This document shows positions 58,043 through 64,000 of a stretch of DNA of 64,000 bases, in pieces (positions within the stretch are counted from its first letter, which is position 1; each line of letters opens with the position of its first letter). The notes under the pieces are model-generated. The model did no database searches and was not told the DNA's origin. It was given only the letters and a program-made list of their open reading frames with translations. Position numbers and translations under genes: made by a program. Source of the DNA: Micromonospora sp. CCTCC AA 2012012 (GTDB lineage: Bacteria > Actinomycetota > Actinomycetes > Mycobacteriales > Micromonosporaceae). The stretch is from the NCBI RefSeq assembly GCF_040499845.1, contig NZ_CP159342.1:2480001-2544000 (forward strand). Direction: 5' to 3'.

Positions 58043-59035
58043 TCAGGCGGAGACGGCCGGCGCCCGGCCGTACGCCCGGTCGCCGAGCGCGGCCAGCCGG
58101 GTCCGGGTGGCGTCGTCGCAGAGCGCCCCGGCCAGTCCGGCCGCCCAGGCGGCGGCGGGGTCGACGCCGAGCCGGCCCGCGAGGGCGTACTCGTCGGCGA
58201 GGGTGACGTCGAAGATCGCCGGGTCGTCGGTGGAGACCGAGCAGCGCACGCCGGCCTCGGCGAGCCGGGTCACCGGGTGCGGCCGGTCCGGCCGGGCCAC
58301 CCCGAGCCGCAGGTTCGACGTCGGCGTCACGTCCAGCACCACGCCCCGGCCGACCAGCTCGGTGACCAGGTCCGGGTCGTCGACCGCGCGGACGCCGTGC
58401 CGGATCCGGGCCGCGCCCATGGCGAGGACCTCGCGGACCGCGTCGGGGCCGGCCGCCTCTCCGGCGTGCGGCACGAAGGGCAGGCCACCGCCGCGGGCGA
58501 TGCCGACCGCCCGGGCGTACGGCTCGGTCGGGTGGCGCCCCTCGGCACCGGAGAGGCCGAAGCCGACCACGCCCCGACCGGCGAACCGGACCGCCACCCG
58601 GGCGGCCTCCTCGGCCACGTCGACGTCCTGTCCCCGGAACACCTGCGGGGTCAGTCCGATCTCGACGGCGTACCGCTCGCGGGCCTCGGCGGCGGCGTCG
58701 CAGCAGGCGGCGAGGACGTCCGCCCAGCCGTCCGGGCCGCCGAACCGCTCCTCCGCGTCGAGGATCGGCTCCAGATAGACCGCGCCGTGCCCGGCCGCCT
58801 CGGCGGCGTACGCGAGCAGCGCCCGCCGGTAGTCGGCCGGGGTGCGCAGGTAGCCGCTGACGGTGTTCCACCGGTCGATGAAGTCGTGGAGGTCGGTGAA
58901 GGAGTCCGGGGGCCGCCCGGCGGGCGGGGTCAGCCCGTGGTCGCGGGCGATCGCGGCGAGCAGCCCGGGGCGGACCGTCCCCTCCAGATGGACGTGCAGT
59001 TCGATCTTGGGCTGCTGGAGTTGGGCGGGGGTCAC
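58043..59035 (-). CDS. add: Adenosine deaminase
   Basis: A 330-residue adenosine/AMP deaminase-family enzyme. Zinc ligands appear in ELHVHLEGT (HxH), in FVPHAGEA and in STDDPAIF; the last two also hold the catalytic His/Glu and Asp. It deaminates adenosine to inosine in purine salvage, although close relatives act on other aminopurines. The GTG at 59035 follows GAGGAGG. It is divergent from the LppM-like gene. Confidence 0.9.
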   Translation of the reverse strand: MTPAQLQQPKIELHVHLEGTVRPGLLAAIARDHGLTPPAGRPPDSFTDLHDFIDRWNTVSGYLRTPADYRRALLAYAAEAAGHGAVYLEPILDAEERFGGPDGWADVLAACCDAAAEARERYAVEIGLTPQVFRGQDVDVAEEAARVAVRFAGRGVVGFGLSGAEGRHPTEPYARAVGIARGGGLPFVPHAGEAAGPDAVREVLAMGAARIRHGVRAVDDPDLVTELVGRGVVLDVTPTSNLRLGVARPDRPHPVTRLAEAGVRCSVSTDDPAIFDVTLADEYALAGRLGVDPAAAWAAGLAGALCDDATRTRLAALGDRAYGRAPAVSA

Positions 59036-59260
59036 GGGGTCCTCCTCTTCGCCCGCGGCGGCGCGGCGGCGTGGACCGTTCCAGGGTGCCCGGCACGGGA
59101 CCGGTCGCACCTCCCCCAGACGAGGGATGATCTCCGCCGGAAAATCCGGACTGGACAATCTTTCAGAATATCGATTTCCCGCGTTTTCCGGCCTCCGCCG
59201 AATGGGAGCAGGCGCCGGTAAGATCGGCGACAGGCATGTGACTGATCGCTGACTGCTGAA

Positions 59261-59276
59261 CGTGATGGCGATCACA
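59261..59276. promoter_or_regulatory. Crp-like binding site
   Basis: CGTGA-N6-TCACA at 59261-59276 matches the Crp consensus TGTGA-N6-TCACA with one mismatch. It lies 13 bp before the LppM-like start, a place where a bound regulator would repress. The surrounding 253-bp gap to the adenosine deaminase gene also holds an AT-richer block near 59155-59175 that may be the promoter region. Confidence 0.45.
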
Positions 59277-59288
59277 CACACTGTGCCC

Positions 59289-60083
59289 ATGAATACGAGA
59301 CCCTGGCGTGGTCGGGCCCTCCGTCTCACGGCGTGTCTCGCCCTGGTGGCGGCACTCGCCGGGTGCATGCAACTCAACCTCGGCCTCACCGTCGCCGCCG
59401 ACGACACGGTCAGCGGGCAACTCCTGCTCACCGCCGAGAAGTCCCTGCTCAGGTCGCGCAACGGCGACGTCTCGGCGGCGTTCACCGAACTGCGGCAGAA
59501 CATTCCCACGCTGCCCGCCGGCACCGAGACCCGCTACGAGGACTCCCGTTACTACGGCATTCTGATCGCCTACCGGCAGAAACCGTTGCGCGAATTCACC
59601 AGCGAGAGCGTGAACCTGGTCCGCGACGGTGATCTCTACCGCTTCACCCTCCCGCTCGACCCGAAGAAATACGGCGGGAAGGTGGCCGAACAGGATCCGC
59701 GCAACCAGCAGGCGTTCATGACGTTGATGTCGTTCGAGATCTCGGTGACCTTTCCCGGCCGGGTCCTCGACACCAACGGCACGGTCACCGGCCGCTCGGT
59801 GAGCTGGAAGGTGGTCGCCAACCAGCCGAAGCCCGCGGAGCTGCGGGCGGTGGCCGAGGCGCCGCCGCAGCCGTCCACCTCCGGCCCGGGGGCCGCCGCC
59901 CCCACCGGCGACGACGGCGGTTCGTTCCCCTGGCTGCTGGTGGGCGCCGGCGTGGTCATCGCGCTGCTGGTCGCCGTGGTCGTCGTACTCCTGCTCCGTC
60001 GCCCGCGCGGCCCGGGACCCGCCGCCCCGGCCGCGCCCACGCCCGGCGTCACGCCCCCGGCGAACCAGCCGGGGCCGGTCTGA
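59289..60083 (+). CDS. LppM-like (DUF3153) lipoprotein
   Basis: A 264-residue exported protein. The lipobox LVAALAGC gives a lipidated Cys after a 25-residue signal. The body begins MQLNLGLTVAADDTVSGQLL and contains the paired strands typical of LppM (RYYGILIAYRQKPLREF, SFEISVTFPGRVLDTNG). Near the C-terminus is a transmembrane helix (WLLVGAGVVIALLVAVVVVL) and a Pro-rich tail inside the cell. Mycobacterial LppM has this shape and affects surface lipids. The ATG at 59289 is preferred over one at 59262 because it starts the normal signal peptide. Confidence 0.82.
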   Translation: MNTRPWRGRALRLTACLALVAALAGCMQLNLGLTVAADDTVSGQLLLTAEKSLLRSRNGDVSAAFTELRQNIPTLPAGTETRYEDSRYYGILIAYRQKPLREFTSESVNLVRDGDLYRFTLPLDPKKYGGKVAEQDPRNQQAFMTLMSFEISVTFPGRVLDTNGTVTGRSVSWKVVANQPKPAELRAVAEAPPQPSTSGPGAAAPTGDDGGSFPWLLVGAGVVIALLVAVVVVLLLRRPRGPGPAAPAAPTPGVTPPANQPGPV

Positions 60084-60168
60084 CCGGCACCTCACCCCGG
60101 GCGGCCCCGGGCCGCCGCACCACCCACCCTCCCTCGCACCACCCGGCACCATCCGAAGGGAGATCGCC

Positions 60169-60513
60169 GTGAACGATCTCTTCACCTGGGCCGCCCTCGG
60201 CAGCCTGACCGGCGCGAGCGCCGCCACCCTGCTGGCCGCCAACGTCATCGGCGGACTGCTCGGCCCGAGCGGCGACAAGGCCCGCAAGTGGATCGCGCTG
60301 GGCATCGCCCTCGCGCTGTCCTACCTCACCGCGGCATTCGCCGCCGACGCCGGCACCCAGAAGTGGATCATCGCCTTCTTCAACGGGCTGGTCATCTTCT
60401 CCGCCGCGCTCGGCGTCAACCAGCTGCCGCCGGGCAACCGGCAGGCGACAAGTGCGTCGCCGACCCAGCTCGCGCAGGGTCGCGAGCCCCGCTACATCCG
60501 CTCCTGGGTCTGA
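60169..60513 (+). CDS. Small integral membrane protein upstream of the injection-system genes
   Basis: A 114-residue protein with three hydrophobic segments (AALGSLTGASAATLLAANVI, WIALGIALALSYLTAAFAAD and WIIAFFNGLVIFSAALGV) and a short hydrophilic end. The GTG at 60169 follows GAAGGGAG. It is 11 bp upstream of the HEDVH membrane protein gene and heads the probable operon that runs into the sheath and tube genes. Its size and helices recall holins or small accessory membrane proteins, but I do not recognise a family. Confidence 0.65.
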   Translation: MNDLFTWAALGSLTGASAATLLAANVIGGLLGPSGDKARKWIALGIALALSYLTAAFAADAGTQKWIIAFFNGLVIFSAALGVNQLPPGNRQATSASPTQLAQGREPRYIRSWV

Positions 60514-60524
60514 GAGGTGACCCC

Positions 60525-61133
60525 ATGGTCCTCGGAATCATCAGCGCCGTCGTCCACCTGGTCCTCGGCGCGCTGCTCGGCCAGGCCGCCGGCGGCACCC
60601 TCGGACTGCTGATCGGCGCCGTCGTCGGCGTGCTCGTCGGCGCGGCCTTCGGCTGGGCGGTCGCCTCCGCCGGCACGTACGCCGCCGACGCGAAGGGGAT
60701 CTTCCTCTTCGTCGTCGACCACACCTGGAGCCTGCTCAACACCGTGGCCGGAGCCATCTACCTGATCGGTCACCTGATCGTCGGCCACCAGCTCGACCGG
60801 GCCGCCTCGGCGGGCAGCGGGCGGGTCAACGTGGTCGAGGGTGTCTCACCCCGGTACGCCACCACCATCGGCACGGTCTGCGCCGGCTCCAGCCCCGGCA
60901 TCCAGCGGCACGAGGACGTGCACGTCTTCCAGGCCCGGCTGCTCGGGCCGCTCTACCTGCCCCTGGTGGCGCTGAACTACGCGCTGTTCACCATCGCCCC
61001 GGTCTGGCTGCTCTGGCACGACCACACCAACGCGCCGATCAACCGCTTCACCCGCTACTTCGAGATCGGCGTCTACCCGCACGTCTGGAACGAGGCCATC
61101 GCGTACCGGATCCAGGGGACGCCGCCGCGATGA
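60525..61133 (+). CDS. Membrane protein with HEDVH (gluzincin-like) motif, operon with injection-system genes
   Basis: A 202-residue protein. Residues 3-48 are a Gly-zipper-like hydrophobic region (LGALLGQAAGGTLGLLIGAV), residues 57-86 another hydrophobic segment. Then comes IQRHEDVHVFQARLLGPLYLP with His129-Glu130-x-x-His133, the HExxH zinc-protease motif, followed by a membrane segment. Glu190 in HVWNEAIAY could be a third ligand. The motif setting (RHExxHxxQ...GPLYLP) is that of a membrane-bound metallopeptidase-like family. The stop overlaps the DUF4255 gene by 4 bp, so it is expressed with the injection system. Confidence 0.65.
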   Translation: MVLGIISAVVHLVLGALLGQAAGGTLGLLIGAVVGVLVGAAFGWAVASAGTYAADAKGIFLFVVDHTWSLLNTVAGAIYLIGHLIVGHQLDRAASAGSGRVNVVEGVSPRYATTIGTVCAGSSPGIQRHEDVHVFQARLLGPLYLPLVALNYALFTIAPVWLLWHDHTNAPINRFTRYFEIGVYPHVWNEAIAYRIQGTPPR

Positions 61134-61816
61134 CCGGAGCGATCGAGGCGGCCACCGCCGACCTGGCGGCGTGGCTGACCGGGGCGGCGGGCGAACCCGT
61201 CCCGGTCGGCCCGCCCCGGGACGACCCGGACGGCGGGCTCACCGTCTGGCCGTTGGAGCTGCGGCCGGCCCGGCAGACCCGGGGCAGCGGCGGGGCGCGC
61301 GAGCCGTACCGGTTCGTGCTCCGGCTGCTGGTCTGCGGCACCGGGCCGGCCGCGCTGCCCCGGCTGGACCGGGTCCTGGCCGCCGCCGCGACGGCCGGCG
61401 AACCGGAGCTGGTCCTCGACGCCGGTGACCCGGCGCTGTGGCGGGCCTTCGGCGTGCCGCCCCGGCCGGCGCTGCTGGTCGACGTGCCCGCCCAGATCGC
61501 CCGGCCGGTCCCGCCCGCCCCGCCGGTGCTGCGGCCGCTGCGGCTGCGCCAGCTGGAGCTGCGCACCCTGGACGGCTGGGTGGTCGGCCCGCAGCAGCAG
61601 CCCCTCGCCGCGATGCGGGTCGAGCTGGTCGGCACCGGCACCGCCACGCACACCGACAGCGCCGGCCGCTTCCGGCTGGTCGGGGTGCCGCACGACCCCG
61701 ACGCGCCGGGCCGGCCGCTGCACCTGCGGCTGGTCGGCCGGGGCCGTACGCACCTCGCCGAACTCGACCCGGCCGATCCCGACCCCGTGATCGTCTGCGC
61801 GCCGCCGGCCGACTGA
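61130..61816 (+). CDS. DUF4255/Pvc16-type protein of the contractile injection system
   Basis: A 228-residue protein. Residues 1-130 match the Pvc16/DUF4255 N-terminal domain found in extracellular contractile injection systems (AIEAATADLAAWLTGAAGE, EPYRFVLRLLVCGTG), thought to act at the tail end or sheath terminus. The C-terminal 90 residues form a carboxypeptidase-regulatory-like Ig domain (AMRVELVGTGTATHTDSAGRF). The ATG at 61130 overlaps the stop of the HEDVH gene. This two-domain build occurs in actinobacterial systems. Confidence 0.8.
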   Translation: MTGAIEAATADLAAWLTGAAGEPVPVGPPRDDPDGGLTVWPLELRPARQTRGSGGAREPYRFVLRLLVCGTGPAALPRLDRVLAAAATAGEPELVLDAGDPALWRAFGVPPRPALLVDVPAQIARPVPPAPPVLRPLRLRQLELRTLDGWVVGPQQQPLAAMRVELVGTGTATHTDSAGRFRLVGVPHDPDAPGRPLHLRLVGRGRTHLAELDPADPDPVIVCAPPAD

Positions 61817-61850
61817 GCCGGTCACCGACCGCACCCGCACAGGAGGACCG

Positions 61851-63086
61851 ATGCCCACCTACTTCTCCCCCGGCATCTATGTCGAGGAGGTGCCCAGCGG
61901 CGCCCGCCCGATCGGACCGGTCGGCACCAGCACGGCCGCCTTCGTCGGCGTCGCCCCGGACCGCGGCGCGCTCGTCGACCGGGCCGTCGCGGTGAACAGC
62001 TGGTCGGAGTTCCTCCGGCTCTATGCCAGCGGGGAGCACCCGGAGAGCACCCCCCTCGCGCGGGCGGTCTTCGGCTTCCTCGACAACGGCGGCACCCGCT
62101 GCTGGGTGGTCAACGTCGGCGAGGGCGGCCAGCTCACCGGCACCGGCGGACGCCGGGGCGGGCTGCAACTGCTGGAGGCGGTCGACGAGATCTCCATCCT
62201 GGCCGCGCCCGGCTTCCACGACCCGGTCGCGCACGAGGCGCTGCTCAGCATGGCCGAGCGGCTGCGCACCATGGTGGCGATCTGCGACCCCGCGCCGGAC
62301 ATCGAGGACATCTCCGGCCTCACCCGGGTCGCCACGCCGCCGAGACCGAAGGCCGCCGCCGACGGCAAACCCGCAGAGGGTACGCCCAGACCCCCCGCCG
62401 ACGACGGCGACGGACAGCCCGCGTACCGGCCCCGGCAGTCGGACTTCGGCACCTGCTACTTCCCGTGGATCCGGGTCCGGGACCCGCTCAGCGGCGAGTT
62501 GGTGCTCACCCCGCCCAGCGGGCACATCGCCGGCATCTGGGCCCGCACCGACGCGCTGCGCGGCGTGCACAAGGCCCCCGCCAACGAGCCGGTACGCGGC
62601 GCGGTCGACCTCGGCTACCTGGTCACCCGCCCCGAACACGACGTGCTCAACCCCAAGGGCGTCAACGTGATCCGCTACTTCGCCGGGGAGGGCATCCGGC
62701 TCTGGGGCGCCCGTACGCTCGCCGCCGAGGCCAGCGAGTGGCGCTACCTCAACGTCCGCCGGCTCTCCATCGCCATCGAGCAGGCCATCGCCGGCGGCAC
62801 CCGGTGGATGGTGTTCGAGCCGAACGACTTCTCCCTGTGGCGGTCGATCCGCCGCGACATCGGCGCGTTCCTCACCCGGGTGTGGCGCGACGGCGCACTG
62901 CTCGGGCGCACGCCGGAGGAGGCGTTCTTCGTCAAGTGCGACGAGGAGACCAACCCGGCCGACGTGCGCGACGCCGGCATGGTGGTCGCCCACATCGGCA
63001 TCGCGGTGGTGAAGCCCGCGGAGTTCGTGGTGTTCAAGCTGAGCCAGTGGGCCGGCGGCACCGAGACCGAGACGATCGGAGGCTGA
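61851..63086 (+). CDS. Contractile tail sheath protein
   Basis: A 411-residue sheath protein of the phage-tail-like family. It starts with the diagnostic YFSPGIYVEEVPSGARPIGP then VGTSTAAFVGVAP, and ends in the conserved core EETNPADVRDAGMVVAHIG and KPAEFVVFKLSQW. An Ala/Pro-rich loop near residues 165-190 is an insertion. The ATG at 61851 follows AGGAGG. In contractile systems this protein forms the contracting outer cylinder around the tube encoded 1 bp after it. Confidence 0.93.
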   Translation: MPTYFSPGIYVEEVPSGARPIGPVGTSTAAFVGVAPDRGALVDRAVAVNSWSEFLRLYASGEHPESTPLARAVFGFLDNGGTRCWVVNVGEGGQLTGTGGRRGGLQLLEAVDEISILAAPGFHDPVAHEALLSMAERLRTMVAICDPAPDIEDISGLTRVATPPRPKAAADGKPAEGTPRPPADDGDGQPAYRPRQSDFGTCYFPWIRVRDPLSGELVLTPPSGHIAGIWARTDALRGVHKAPANEPVRGAVDLGYLVTRPEHDVLNPKGVNVIRYFAGEGIRLWGARTLAAEASEWRYLNVRRLSIAIEQAIAGGTRWMVFEPNDFSLWRSIRRDIGAFLTRVWRDGALLGRTPEEAFFVKCDEETNPADVRDAGMVVAHIGIAVVKPAEFVVFKLSQWAGGTETETIGG

Positions 63087-63087
63087 C

Positions 63088-63570
63088 ATGGCGACCACGG
63101 CCACCCCGCAACCCGGCGCCCCCGTCGACCCGTACCGGGCGTACAACTTCAAGCTGCTCATCAACGGCATCACCAACGGGCACTTCACCGAGGTCAGCGG
63201 GCTGGAGGTGAACATCGCGCCGCTGGCGTACCGGGAGGCCGGCAACGACCGGGTGCGCTCGGTGCCGGGCCAGGTCGAGTACGCCCCGGTCACCCTCCAC
63301 TTCGGCCTCACCTCCTCCCGCGAGCTGTGGGACTGGGTGAACGCGGCGGCCCGGGGCACGGTGAGCCGGCGCAACGTCTCCGTGGTGCTGCTCGACCCGG
63401 CCGGCACCAGCGAGGTGCTGCGCTGGAACATGATCAACGCATGGCCCACCCGGTGGCGGGGCGCCCACCTGAACACCCTGGCCCAGGAGATCGCCATCGA
63501 GGCGCTGACCCTGGCGTACGAGGGACTGGACCTGGAGGCCGGCGGTGCGACCGCCCCGACGCCCGCGTGA
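63088..63570 (+). CDS. Contractile tail tube protein (gp19-like)
   Basis: A 160-residue inner tube protein of the T4 gp19 family: DPYRAYNFKLLINGITNGHF, then FTEVSGLEVNIAPLAYREAG, RSVPGQVEYAPVTLHFGLTS and TLAQEIAIEALTLAYEGLDLE (in part). Hexamers stack inside the sheath. The ATG is 2 nt after the sheath stop. The gene overlaps a following plus-strand GTG ORF by 26 bp. Confidence 0.92.
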   Translation: MATTATPQPGAPVDPYRAYNFKLLINGITNGHFTEVSGLEVNIAPLAYREAGNDRVRSVPGQVEYAPVTLHFGLTSSRELWDWVNAAARGTVSRRNVSVVLLDPAGTSEVLRWNMINAWPTRWRGAHLNTLAQEIAIEALTLAYEGLDLEAGGATAPTPA

Positions 63571-64000
63571 CTGGCTGGCCCGGCGGCTGCGGGCCACCGC
63601 CGACGCCGCCGACCGCCTGGCCCACGCCCTCACCCCGACCACCGCGCTCCCCGACCCACCCACCACCCCCCACCCCACCCCCGCCCTCACCACGGACCCC
63701 ACTCCCGCCGATCCCCCCGCACCCCGCCTCCCCGGCCAACCCCCCGACCACTGGCTCCGCCTGGTGGCCGCCCACGCCCCCACCCTCCTCACCGACCCCT
63801 CCCCCTTCCCCCCACCACCCACCCCGACCCCACCCACCACGCCCACCGCGCCCATCGCGCCCACCGCGCCCACCGCGCCGGTTGATCATGAAGTTCTGGT
63901 CGGATCGAGGGCTGATCCTGACGCAAACCTCATGATCAACGCGGCGGACCGCGAGGGTCGGTGGAGTGGTGGTTGGCGGGGAGGCGTGGGGGGTTGGGGT
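63545..64000 (+). CDS. Proline-rich ORF after the tube gene, cut by window edge
   Basis: An open frame of 152 codons from a GTG at 63545 that overlaps the tube gene end and runs off the window. It begins RDWLARRLRATADAADRLAH, then becomes very Pro/Thr/Ala-rich with a WLRLVAAHAP segment, and after 63880 crosses an inverted repeat that is probably not coding. The N-terminal amphipathic helix and the coupled start support a real gene, and short proteins do follow the tube gene in actinobacterial injection systems. The true 3' end is uncertain. Confidence 0.5.
   Translation, partial: MRPPRRPRDWLARRLRATADAADRLAHALTPTTALPDPPTTPHPTPALTTDPTPADPPAPRLPGQPPDHWLRLVAAHAPTLLTDPSPFPPPPTPTPPTTPTAPIAPTAPTAPVDHEVLVGSRADPDANLMINAADREGRWSGGWRGGVGGWG
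63881..63940. repeat. Inverted repeat with perfect 11-bp arms
   Basis: GTTGATCATGA at 63881-63891 and TCATGATCAAC at 63930-63940 are perfectly complementary, with a 38-nt interior that includes GATCGAG. The GATCATG and GATCGAG words recur in the hairpin repeats at 17113 and 18985. The local AT-rise and the low-complexity sequence on both sides suggest an inserted intergenic element or terminator rather than coding sequence. Confidence 0.6.

Follow-up and report, generated by a model that had tools for sequence, protein, structure and literature searches.

The gene regions of extracellular contractile injection systems (eCIS) are said, in the available portion of one report, invariably to encode an AAA+ ATPase and a Pvc16_N terminator (PMC10020575), and the accessible part of a published survey describes the ATPase as always present in such clusters (PMC4122934). 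Of the factors that bring cytoplasmic contractile injection systems (CIS) to the membrane or trigger their firing, CisA of Streptomyces coelicolor is the one that we found described. Here we analyze a 64,000-nucleotide stretch of Micromonospora sp. CCTCC AA 2012012 (contig NZ_CP159342.1, positions 2,480,001 to 2,544,000; hereafter the window), at the end of which starts a set of fifteen genes, g1 to g15, with g2 coding for a membrane protein carrying an HExxH-type motif, which we call HEDVH. The locus is almost certainly a contractile injection system, and very probably one of a divergent type, without AAA+ marker or recognizable Pvc16_N terminator. We read it, tentatively and with slightly less than even confidence, as a compact membrane-coupled CIS that carries a membrane module in its operon, with HEDVH as an optional, membrane peptidase-like accessory. 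The more novel content, namely the CIS variant and its membrane module, lies mostly beyond the window.

The operon spans 60169 to ~73504 and is cut by the end of the window; coordinates past position 64000 are extrapolated from L009 and L010, a position in L009 plus 56000 giving the window coordinate. Sheath, inner tube, spike hub, gp25 and baseplate J, the components that characterize a CIS in the broad sense, are encoded in one cluster. The contractile sheath gene g4 (61851..63086, + strand, 411 aa) is single and short and matches Phage_sheath_1 (1.3e-14) and Phage_sheath_1C (2.1e-14); the top-scoring solved chain is 8bky_A, whose sequence also occurs identically in 9gtp. This is the one Phage_sheath_1 match in the whole 6.73-Mb genome, which forms a single contig. 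The inner tube gene g5 (63088..63570, + strand, 160 aa) belongs to the gp19 family (Phage_T4_gp19, 6.2e-35). Further downstream, Pfam matches identify g7 as CIS_tube (65041-65784) and g8 as the spike (GPD and base_V, 65787-67364), and these are followed by g9 (67364-67702, 112 aa), which occupies the place of the PAAR gene yet has no PAAR match, g10 (gp25, 67699-68130), g11 (baseplate J, 68127-70733) and g12 (Tail_P2_I, 70714-71343). A preliminary description of the window had placed sheath and tube genes after HEDVH and g3, with two membrane proteins at the operon head; both statements hold, the two being g1, with two strong hydrophobic helices, and the polytopic HEDVH. It had also suggested listing baseplate, spike and AAA+ genes past position 64000, where the spike and baseplate genes were found but no AAA+ match among the locus proteins.

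The fifteen genes look like a single operon in sequence, because 9 of the 14 junctions overlap and the largest gap is 34 bp (spacings from g1 to g5 are +11, -4, +34 and +1 bp). No sigma-70-type promoter or terminator pattern was seen at 59000-62000, a result that is uninformative for this organism.

The departures from classical eCIS concern both hallmark genes. No AAA match was obtained among the locus proteins with Pfam, and unrelated AAA proteins may exist elsewhere in the genome. The tail-terminator-like gene g3 (61130..61816, + strand), which overlaps g2 by 4 bp, had been labelled DUF4255, a label without support from Pfam: it has no Pfam match to Pvc16_N (PF14065) at E<=1, and none exists along the genome. 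A weak collinear match to the terminator profile makes it plausible that g3 is a divergent terminator, and its C-terminus resembles a carboxypeptidase-regulatory domain (Pfam 3.3e-5, under the family cut-off). Among 13 genomes tested, eight have a single sheath match, which is of this type (G000, G068, G146, G167, G103, G062, G138 and G042), and in all eight both Pvc16_N and the winged-helix AAA marker PF22977 are absent genome-wide; the other five carry both, PF22977 being weak in G065. The eCIS core domain DUF4157 had no match in G000; of 20 genomes searched in this way, 12 gave one, including G103 weakly (4.8e-5). No tail fibre or tape-measure genes were recognized among the Pfam matches, no search aimed at them having been made. 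The locus is likely a new CIS variant, a compact set with membrane parts in one operon and in a genus other than Streptomyces, and it contradicts the printed statements that such clusters always have an AAA+ ATPase. We found no literature pairing contractile injection with 'glycine zipper family protein' or 'CHAT domain', subscription journals lying mostly outside the literature searched, and among the matches listed for CIS and caspases none concerned this variant by title and abstract.

Because of the likeness of its sheath, tube and baseplate genes to phage tail families, we considered that the locus could be the remnant of a prophage or tailocin. Compared with PHROGs, however, ten locus proteins matched tail families or nothing known; the flanks (FUSC, NUDIX, adenosine deaminase, LppM, VTT/DedA and a sensor kinase, six genes scanned) are all chromosomal in kind; no capsid, terminase or integrase match was seen among the locus and flank proteins scanned; and in 56 loci, from many species, HEDVH has the CIS genes next to it. 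We give this explanation scarcely any credence; a prophage was one of the outcomes that the preliminary description had named as refuting it.

The membrane module follows the baseplate genes. The g13 gene (71340-72263) encodes an Ig-like domain, one helix and a sugar- or wall-binding ectodomain; in its place behind the baseplate wedge genes and its single helix, it corresponds to a CisA-type adaptor. The C-terminal domain of g13 would lie outside the membrane, and this presumed outer domain varies between loci, being MiXBM-like, PASTA, or PASTA with LamG. Next come g14 (72260-72727), with one helix, and g15 (72749-73504), with about eight. HEDVH had been proposed to anchor, release or trigger the particle; for anchoring, g13 and g15 are the better candidates. 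In a Hamadaea relative (L110:15900-17964) there are two tandem g13 genes with near-identical starts, and genome G460 carries two g13-like genes ahead of HEDVH plus one behind the baseplate genes.

The HEDVH gene (60525..61133, + strand) encodes 202 residues: the N-terminus has a hairpin of glycine-zipper-like kind, residues 129-136 read HExxHxxQ, and Glu190 lies within NEAIAY (N-E-x-x-A-Y). The segment RHEDVHVFQARLLGPLYLP is found in this reading frame, and the numbering of His129 and Glu130 in the preliminary description is right. Among 5.8 billion proteins searched, 143 relatives were found; those listed, 120 in number, are for the most part annotated as 'glycine zipper family proteins' from Micromonospora or come from metagenomes. 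Homologues of the window's proteins bear the name Micromonospora, which makes this genus, and not Streptomyces, the most likely one. In an alignment of 72 sequences (the window and 71 relatives), no variation occurs at H129, E130, H133, Q136, D65 or Y144, and at least 90% of the sequences keep E190. The HExxH-like motif noted earlier is real: in close rows extracted by profile from the loci, many of which are from close Micromonospora, HExxHxxQ is present in 83 of 83 and the downstream, third-ligand-like Glu of N-E-x-x-A-Y type in 82 of 83. Such conservation is beyond chance, and HEDVH shows the HExxH with distal third ligand that is typical of zincins, Glu190 being the presumed ligand. No Pfam family covers it (51 members scanned, weak matches only, the best with E 0.0011 to glycine zippers), and HEDVH marks a membrane HExxH family that has no Pfam name and is spread over the phylum. 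AlphaFold2, run with the 72 sequences, gave a mean pLDDT of 96.8 and a predicted fold in which the motif is part of helix 127-157, preceded by three short strands, and helix 188-196 contains Glu190. A motif helix and then a later helix with Glu is the order expected in a gluzincin-like membrane peptidase. A proteolytic role is possible, though in our estimate rather less likely than not.

HEDVH-like domains also occur in other settings. In two genomes from the same taxonomic order as the window, PE-family proteins end in such a membrane HExxH domain (L162:1042-2184, PF00934 E 7e-30; L163:1117-2187, 2e-28). PE proteins follow the type VII secretion route, and the fusions suggest that the domain can also travel by it. 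In three genomes (L157, L158 and L161; family f29), a distant HEDVH-like gene adjoins an apparent Bax-inhibitor-1-like gene, with BaxI_1 at E 6e-73 in L158 and the other two judged by eye.

HEDVH could itself be cargo, that is, a membrane-inserting effector whose glycine-zipper hairpin carries the peptidase domain into the target membrane. Its glycine-zipper-like helices, the relatives fused behind PE domains, in likely secreted proteins of two genomes, and the Streptomyces CIS cargo Sle1, described in the accessible part of its report as translocated to lipid membranes (PMC13277306), all fit such a role. Nevertheless, HEDVH has no DUF4157, nor has the genome; it is kept in genomes without a sheath match; and it does not lie at the 3' end, given in the available text of one study as the usual place of cargo genes (PMC8213781). 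We consider cargo improbable.

The gene upstream of HEDVH, g1 (60169..60513, + strand, 114 aa), raises a different explanation, in which g1, as a holin, and HEDVH, as a protease, would together open the envelope of the producing cell for particle release. The two genes are tightly coupled, and g1 has a weak holin-like Pfam match, which at E 0.036 and 14.8 bits remains below the cut-off of 29.2. On the other hand, neither protein has a PHROG match at E<=0.01, g1 is unmatched in Hamadaea tsunoensis and in the searched loci of other genera, and the part of the published survey at hand stresses that such clusters are without lysis genes (PMC4122934). Such a pair seems highly improbable, and the candidate assignment of g1 as a holin was dropped for want of support.

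The gene neighbourhood of HEDVH was analyzed in the best 80 of 103 confirmed HEDVH loci. In 56 of these 80, g3, sheath and tube adjoin HEDVH, which directly precedes g3, and all 56 belong to the 59 loci that come from Micromonospora, Verrucosispora, one further Micromonosporaceae and Hamadaea. Matches to g1 were found in 54 of the 56, the two misses being L054, where the contig is cut on that side, and L068 from Hamadaea. The three exceptions among the 59 (M. mirobrigensis, M. thermarum and M. sp. PLK6-60) have HEDVH at the same chromosomal site, and CIS, LppM and g1 are missing; PLK6-60 reads adenosine deaminase, HEDVH, DedA. Their flanks are kept, with FUSC on one side (plus NUDIX or adenosine deaminase in two) and, opposite, DedA in two and an MDFPP gene in three. 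M. mirobrigensis and PLK6-60 have no sheath match, and the sheath of M. thermarum is on another contig, in a different cluster. The remaining 21 HEDVH loci (Catellatospora, Saccharothrix, Actinopolymorpha, Haloechinothrix and others) have no adjoining CIS gene at E<=1e-3, with the partial exception of L071. On this contig, which is 5 kb long and from Geodermatophilaceae, HEDVH is convergent with a g15-like gene, and there are no further CIS genes.

Of 150 Micromonosporaceae genomes, 27 have HEDVH and 26 a sheath of this type, counted when unbroken, full-length and of at least 65% identity. HEDVH is adjacent to the CIS in 12 of the 26 (11 Micromonospora, 1 Hamadaea), and at the level of genera it occurs in 4 of 7 with the CIS, against 1 of 37 without it (p 0.0012 in a one-sided Fisher test, not tree-corrected). 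G135 lies outside this count because its sheath is in three pieces (58-76%); it has no HEDVH, and including it would raise the CIS genomes to 27, those lacking HEDVH to 7, and the genus figure to 4 of 8. In G065, a second sheath of this type is present in two pieces.

Beyond the family, in a phylum-wide draw of 396 genomes, g15 was matched in three: the genome studied here, G460 and G307, the latter two being outside its class. In a draw of the same size, HEDVH was matched in 31 genomes at E<=1e-3, with more than 250 bits in its own genome and G460 only and between 1e-21 and 1e-10 in nine others. In G460, the CIS genes g3 to g12 and g15 are present at 36-56% identity, and HEDVH (42% identity), its reading frame intact to its own stop, lies immediately ahead of g3, as in the window. 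G307 has a distant HEDVH relative (37.6 bits, HERLHVFQ) ~5-6 kb past g15.

These distributions bear on the main alternative, that HEDVH is a CIS-independent chromosomal membrane protein beside which the CIS landed or was lost, its close spacing being a by-product of dense packing. The three CIS-less Micromonospora sites speak for independence, as do the missing Phage_sheath_1 match in 6 of 23 tested genomes with HEDVH loci, the other neighbours of HEDVH in Catellatospora, Saccharothrix, Actinopolymorpha and Haloechinothrix, and the broader HExxH superfamily, present in 9 further genomes (E<=1e-10) without a g15 match. However, the position before g3 recurs in G460, a genome of another class with a sheath just 54% identical, L071 pairs HEDVH with a g15-like gene, and HEDVH and CIS co-occur at genus level. 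We judge that the association either dates far back and has been lost many times or arose on several occasions, both being likelier than chance adjacency, and independence rather unlikely. The view of HEDVH as a mere neighbour was revised once G460 and L071 had shown it beside CIS genes again. A functional tie of HEDVH to the CIS has, in our estimate, an even chance.

Loci of other genera carry another candidate regulator. A homologue of a TPR-CHAT gene stands beside the CIS in 6 of 6 loci from genera other than Micromonospora and Hamadaea, at the operon head in five and on the opposite side in L111; the other 67 sequences of the same search, many of them short stretches, gave no match. Pfam confirmed the CHAT domain in the three proteins scanned (E 1e-33 to 4e-39). 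In G307 (L151:4273-9340), genes for CHAT, caspase C14, a membrane-like protein and the distant HEDVH relative are grouped past g15, the CHAT and caspase C14 genes lying between g15 and that relative.

In the membrane-coupled CIS that we favour, particles would be put together in the cytoplasm and attach to the membrane from the inside via g13 and g15, g13 gripping the cell wall on the outside, and contraction would puncture the producer's own envelope, by analogy with the proposal for Streptomyces. HEDVH would act as a membrane-embedded, zinc-peptidase-like accessory that trims or unlocks the membrane module and thereby releases or arms the particle. It would be optional, other lineages going without it, keeping it elsewhere, or having the TPR-CHAT protease-like gene by the CIS. 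If HEDVH or the CHAT gene does gate firing, the trigger becomes genetically testable. A wider formulation, which we regard as unlikely, would see an ATPase-free, membrane-docked CIS class of actinobacteria with a protease checkpoint, a device for regulated self-puncture in which a stress-sensing protease frees the particle against the envelope of the cell itself; the checkpoint would be the HExxH protein in Micromonospora and G460, TPR-CHAT in other genera, and CHAT, caspase C14 and the distant HEDVH relative in G307.

Several observations weigh against membrane coupling with HEDVH as accessory. HEDVH is unlinked in 8 of the 26 CIS genomes (on another contig in 7 of genus g16, ~183 kb off in G032) and absent from 6, and 7 of the 27 HEDVH genomes are without a sheath of this type. 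In the tree, the CIS-linked HEDVH rows are not one clade, G460 pairing with L071 apart from the Micromonospora group. Structural comparison found no solved peptidase matching HEDVH, its match to the eCIS core domain profile covers 17 motif columns only, the TPR-CHAT homologue was not found in G460, and AAA+ proteins of a general kind might act in trans. The co-occurrence on which the preliminary description had staked its proposal stands for 56 of 59 loci and for G460, and fails in these 8, 6 and 7 genomes. Its view that HEDVH lies outside the core set holds; placing it at the head of a standard system was an over-reading. HEDVH is thus a recurrent but dispensable partner of this CIS, not a core part.

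Two further genes are of note. An LppM-domain lipoprotein-like gene (59262..60083, + strand) ends 85 bp upstream of g1, and its membership in the system is uncertain; a match to it exists in 44 of the 80 loci with HEDVH, some contigs ending before its position, and in none of the three CIS-less Micromonospora loci, where it is gone together with the CIS while HEDVH stays. The g6 reading frame (63545..65041, + strand, 498 aa), of which the window holds the first part, to 64000, is low-complexity and Pro/Gly-rich, with partly conserved ends and a low-complexity middle. Its Pro/Gly-rich stretch at 63770-63990 has ~70-84% matches at dozens of genome sites on both strands.

Among known systems, the locus is closest to the S. 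coelicolor CIS (type IId, CisA). Its sheath has 8bky_A/9gtp as best match and its baseplate J 9gtp_1K, entries that we take to be those of the S. coelicolor CIS; the tape-measure is absent there, and none was recognized here; and both have, right behind the baseplate wedge genes, a single-pass membrane protein with a carbohydrate-related C-terminal domain. This locus differs in having one short sheath gene and one gp19-type tube gene, no match to the winged-helix AAA marker, Pvc16_N or the eCIS core in the genome, and the extra membrane genes g14, g15, g1 and HEDVH, with a TPR-CHAT gene in relatives. The motif of HEDVH recalls the eCIS core domain DUF4157 (PF13699), which shares the HExxHVxQ motif and the association with injection systems, but HEDVH is a membrane protein with no Pfam match to DUF4157. 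With gluzincin membrane peptidases (clan MA, such as M48 and M56) it shares a long helix bearing HExxH, a later helix with a distal Glu, and surrounding hydrophobic helices, although no sequence or structure match to them was found. Set beside the descriptions in the available portions of two reports (PMC12237407, PMC10020575), g13 resembles CisA (SCO4242) in gene position and predicted topology, with the N-terminus inside, a helix and an outer domain, and Sco4256 in its layout of Ig/pilus-chaperone-like domain, helix and variable C-terminus. The N-terminus of CisA is described as largely unstructured, whereas that of g13 has an Ig-like domain.

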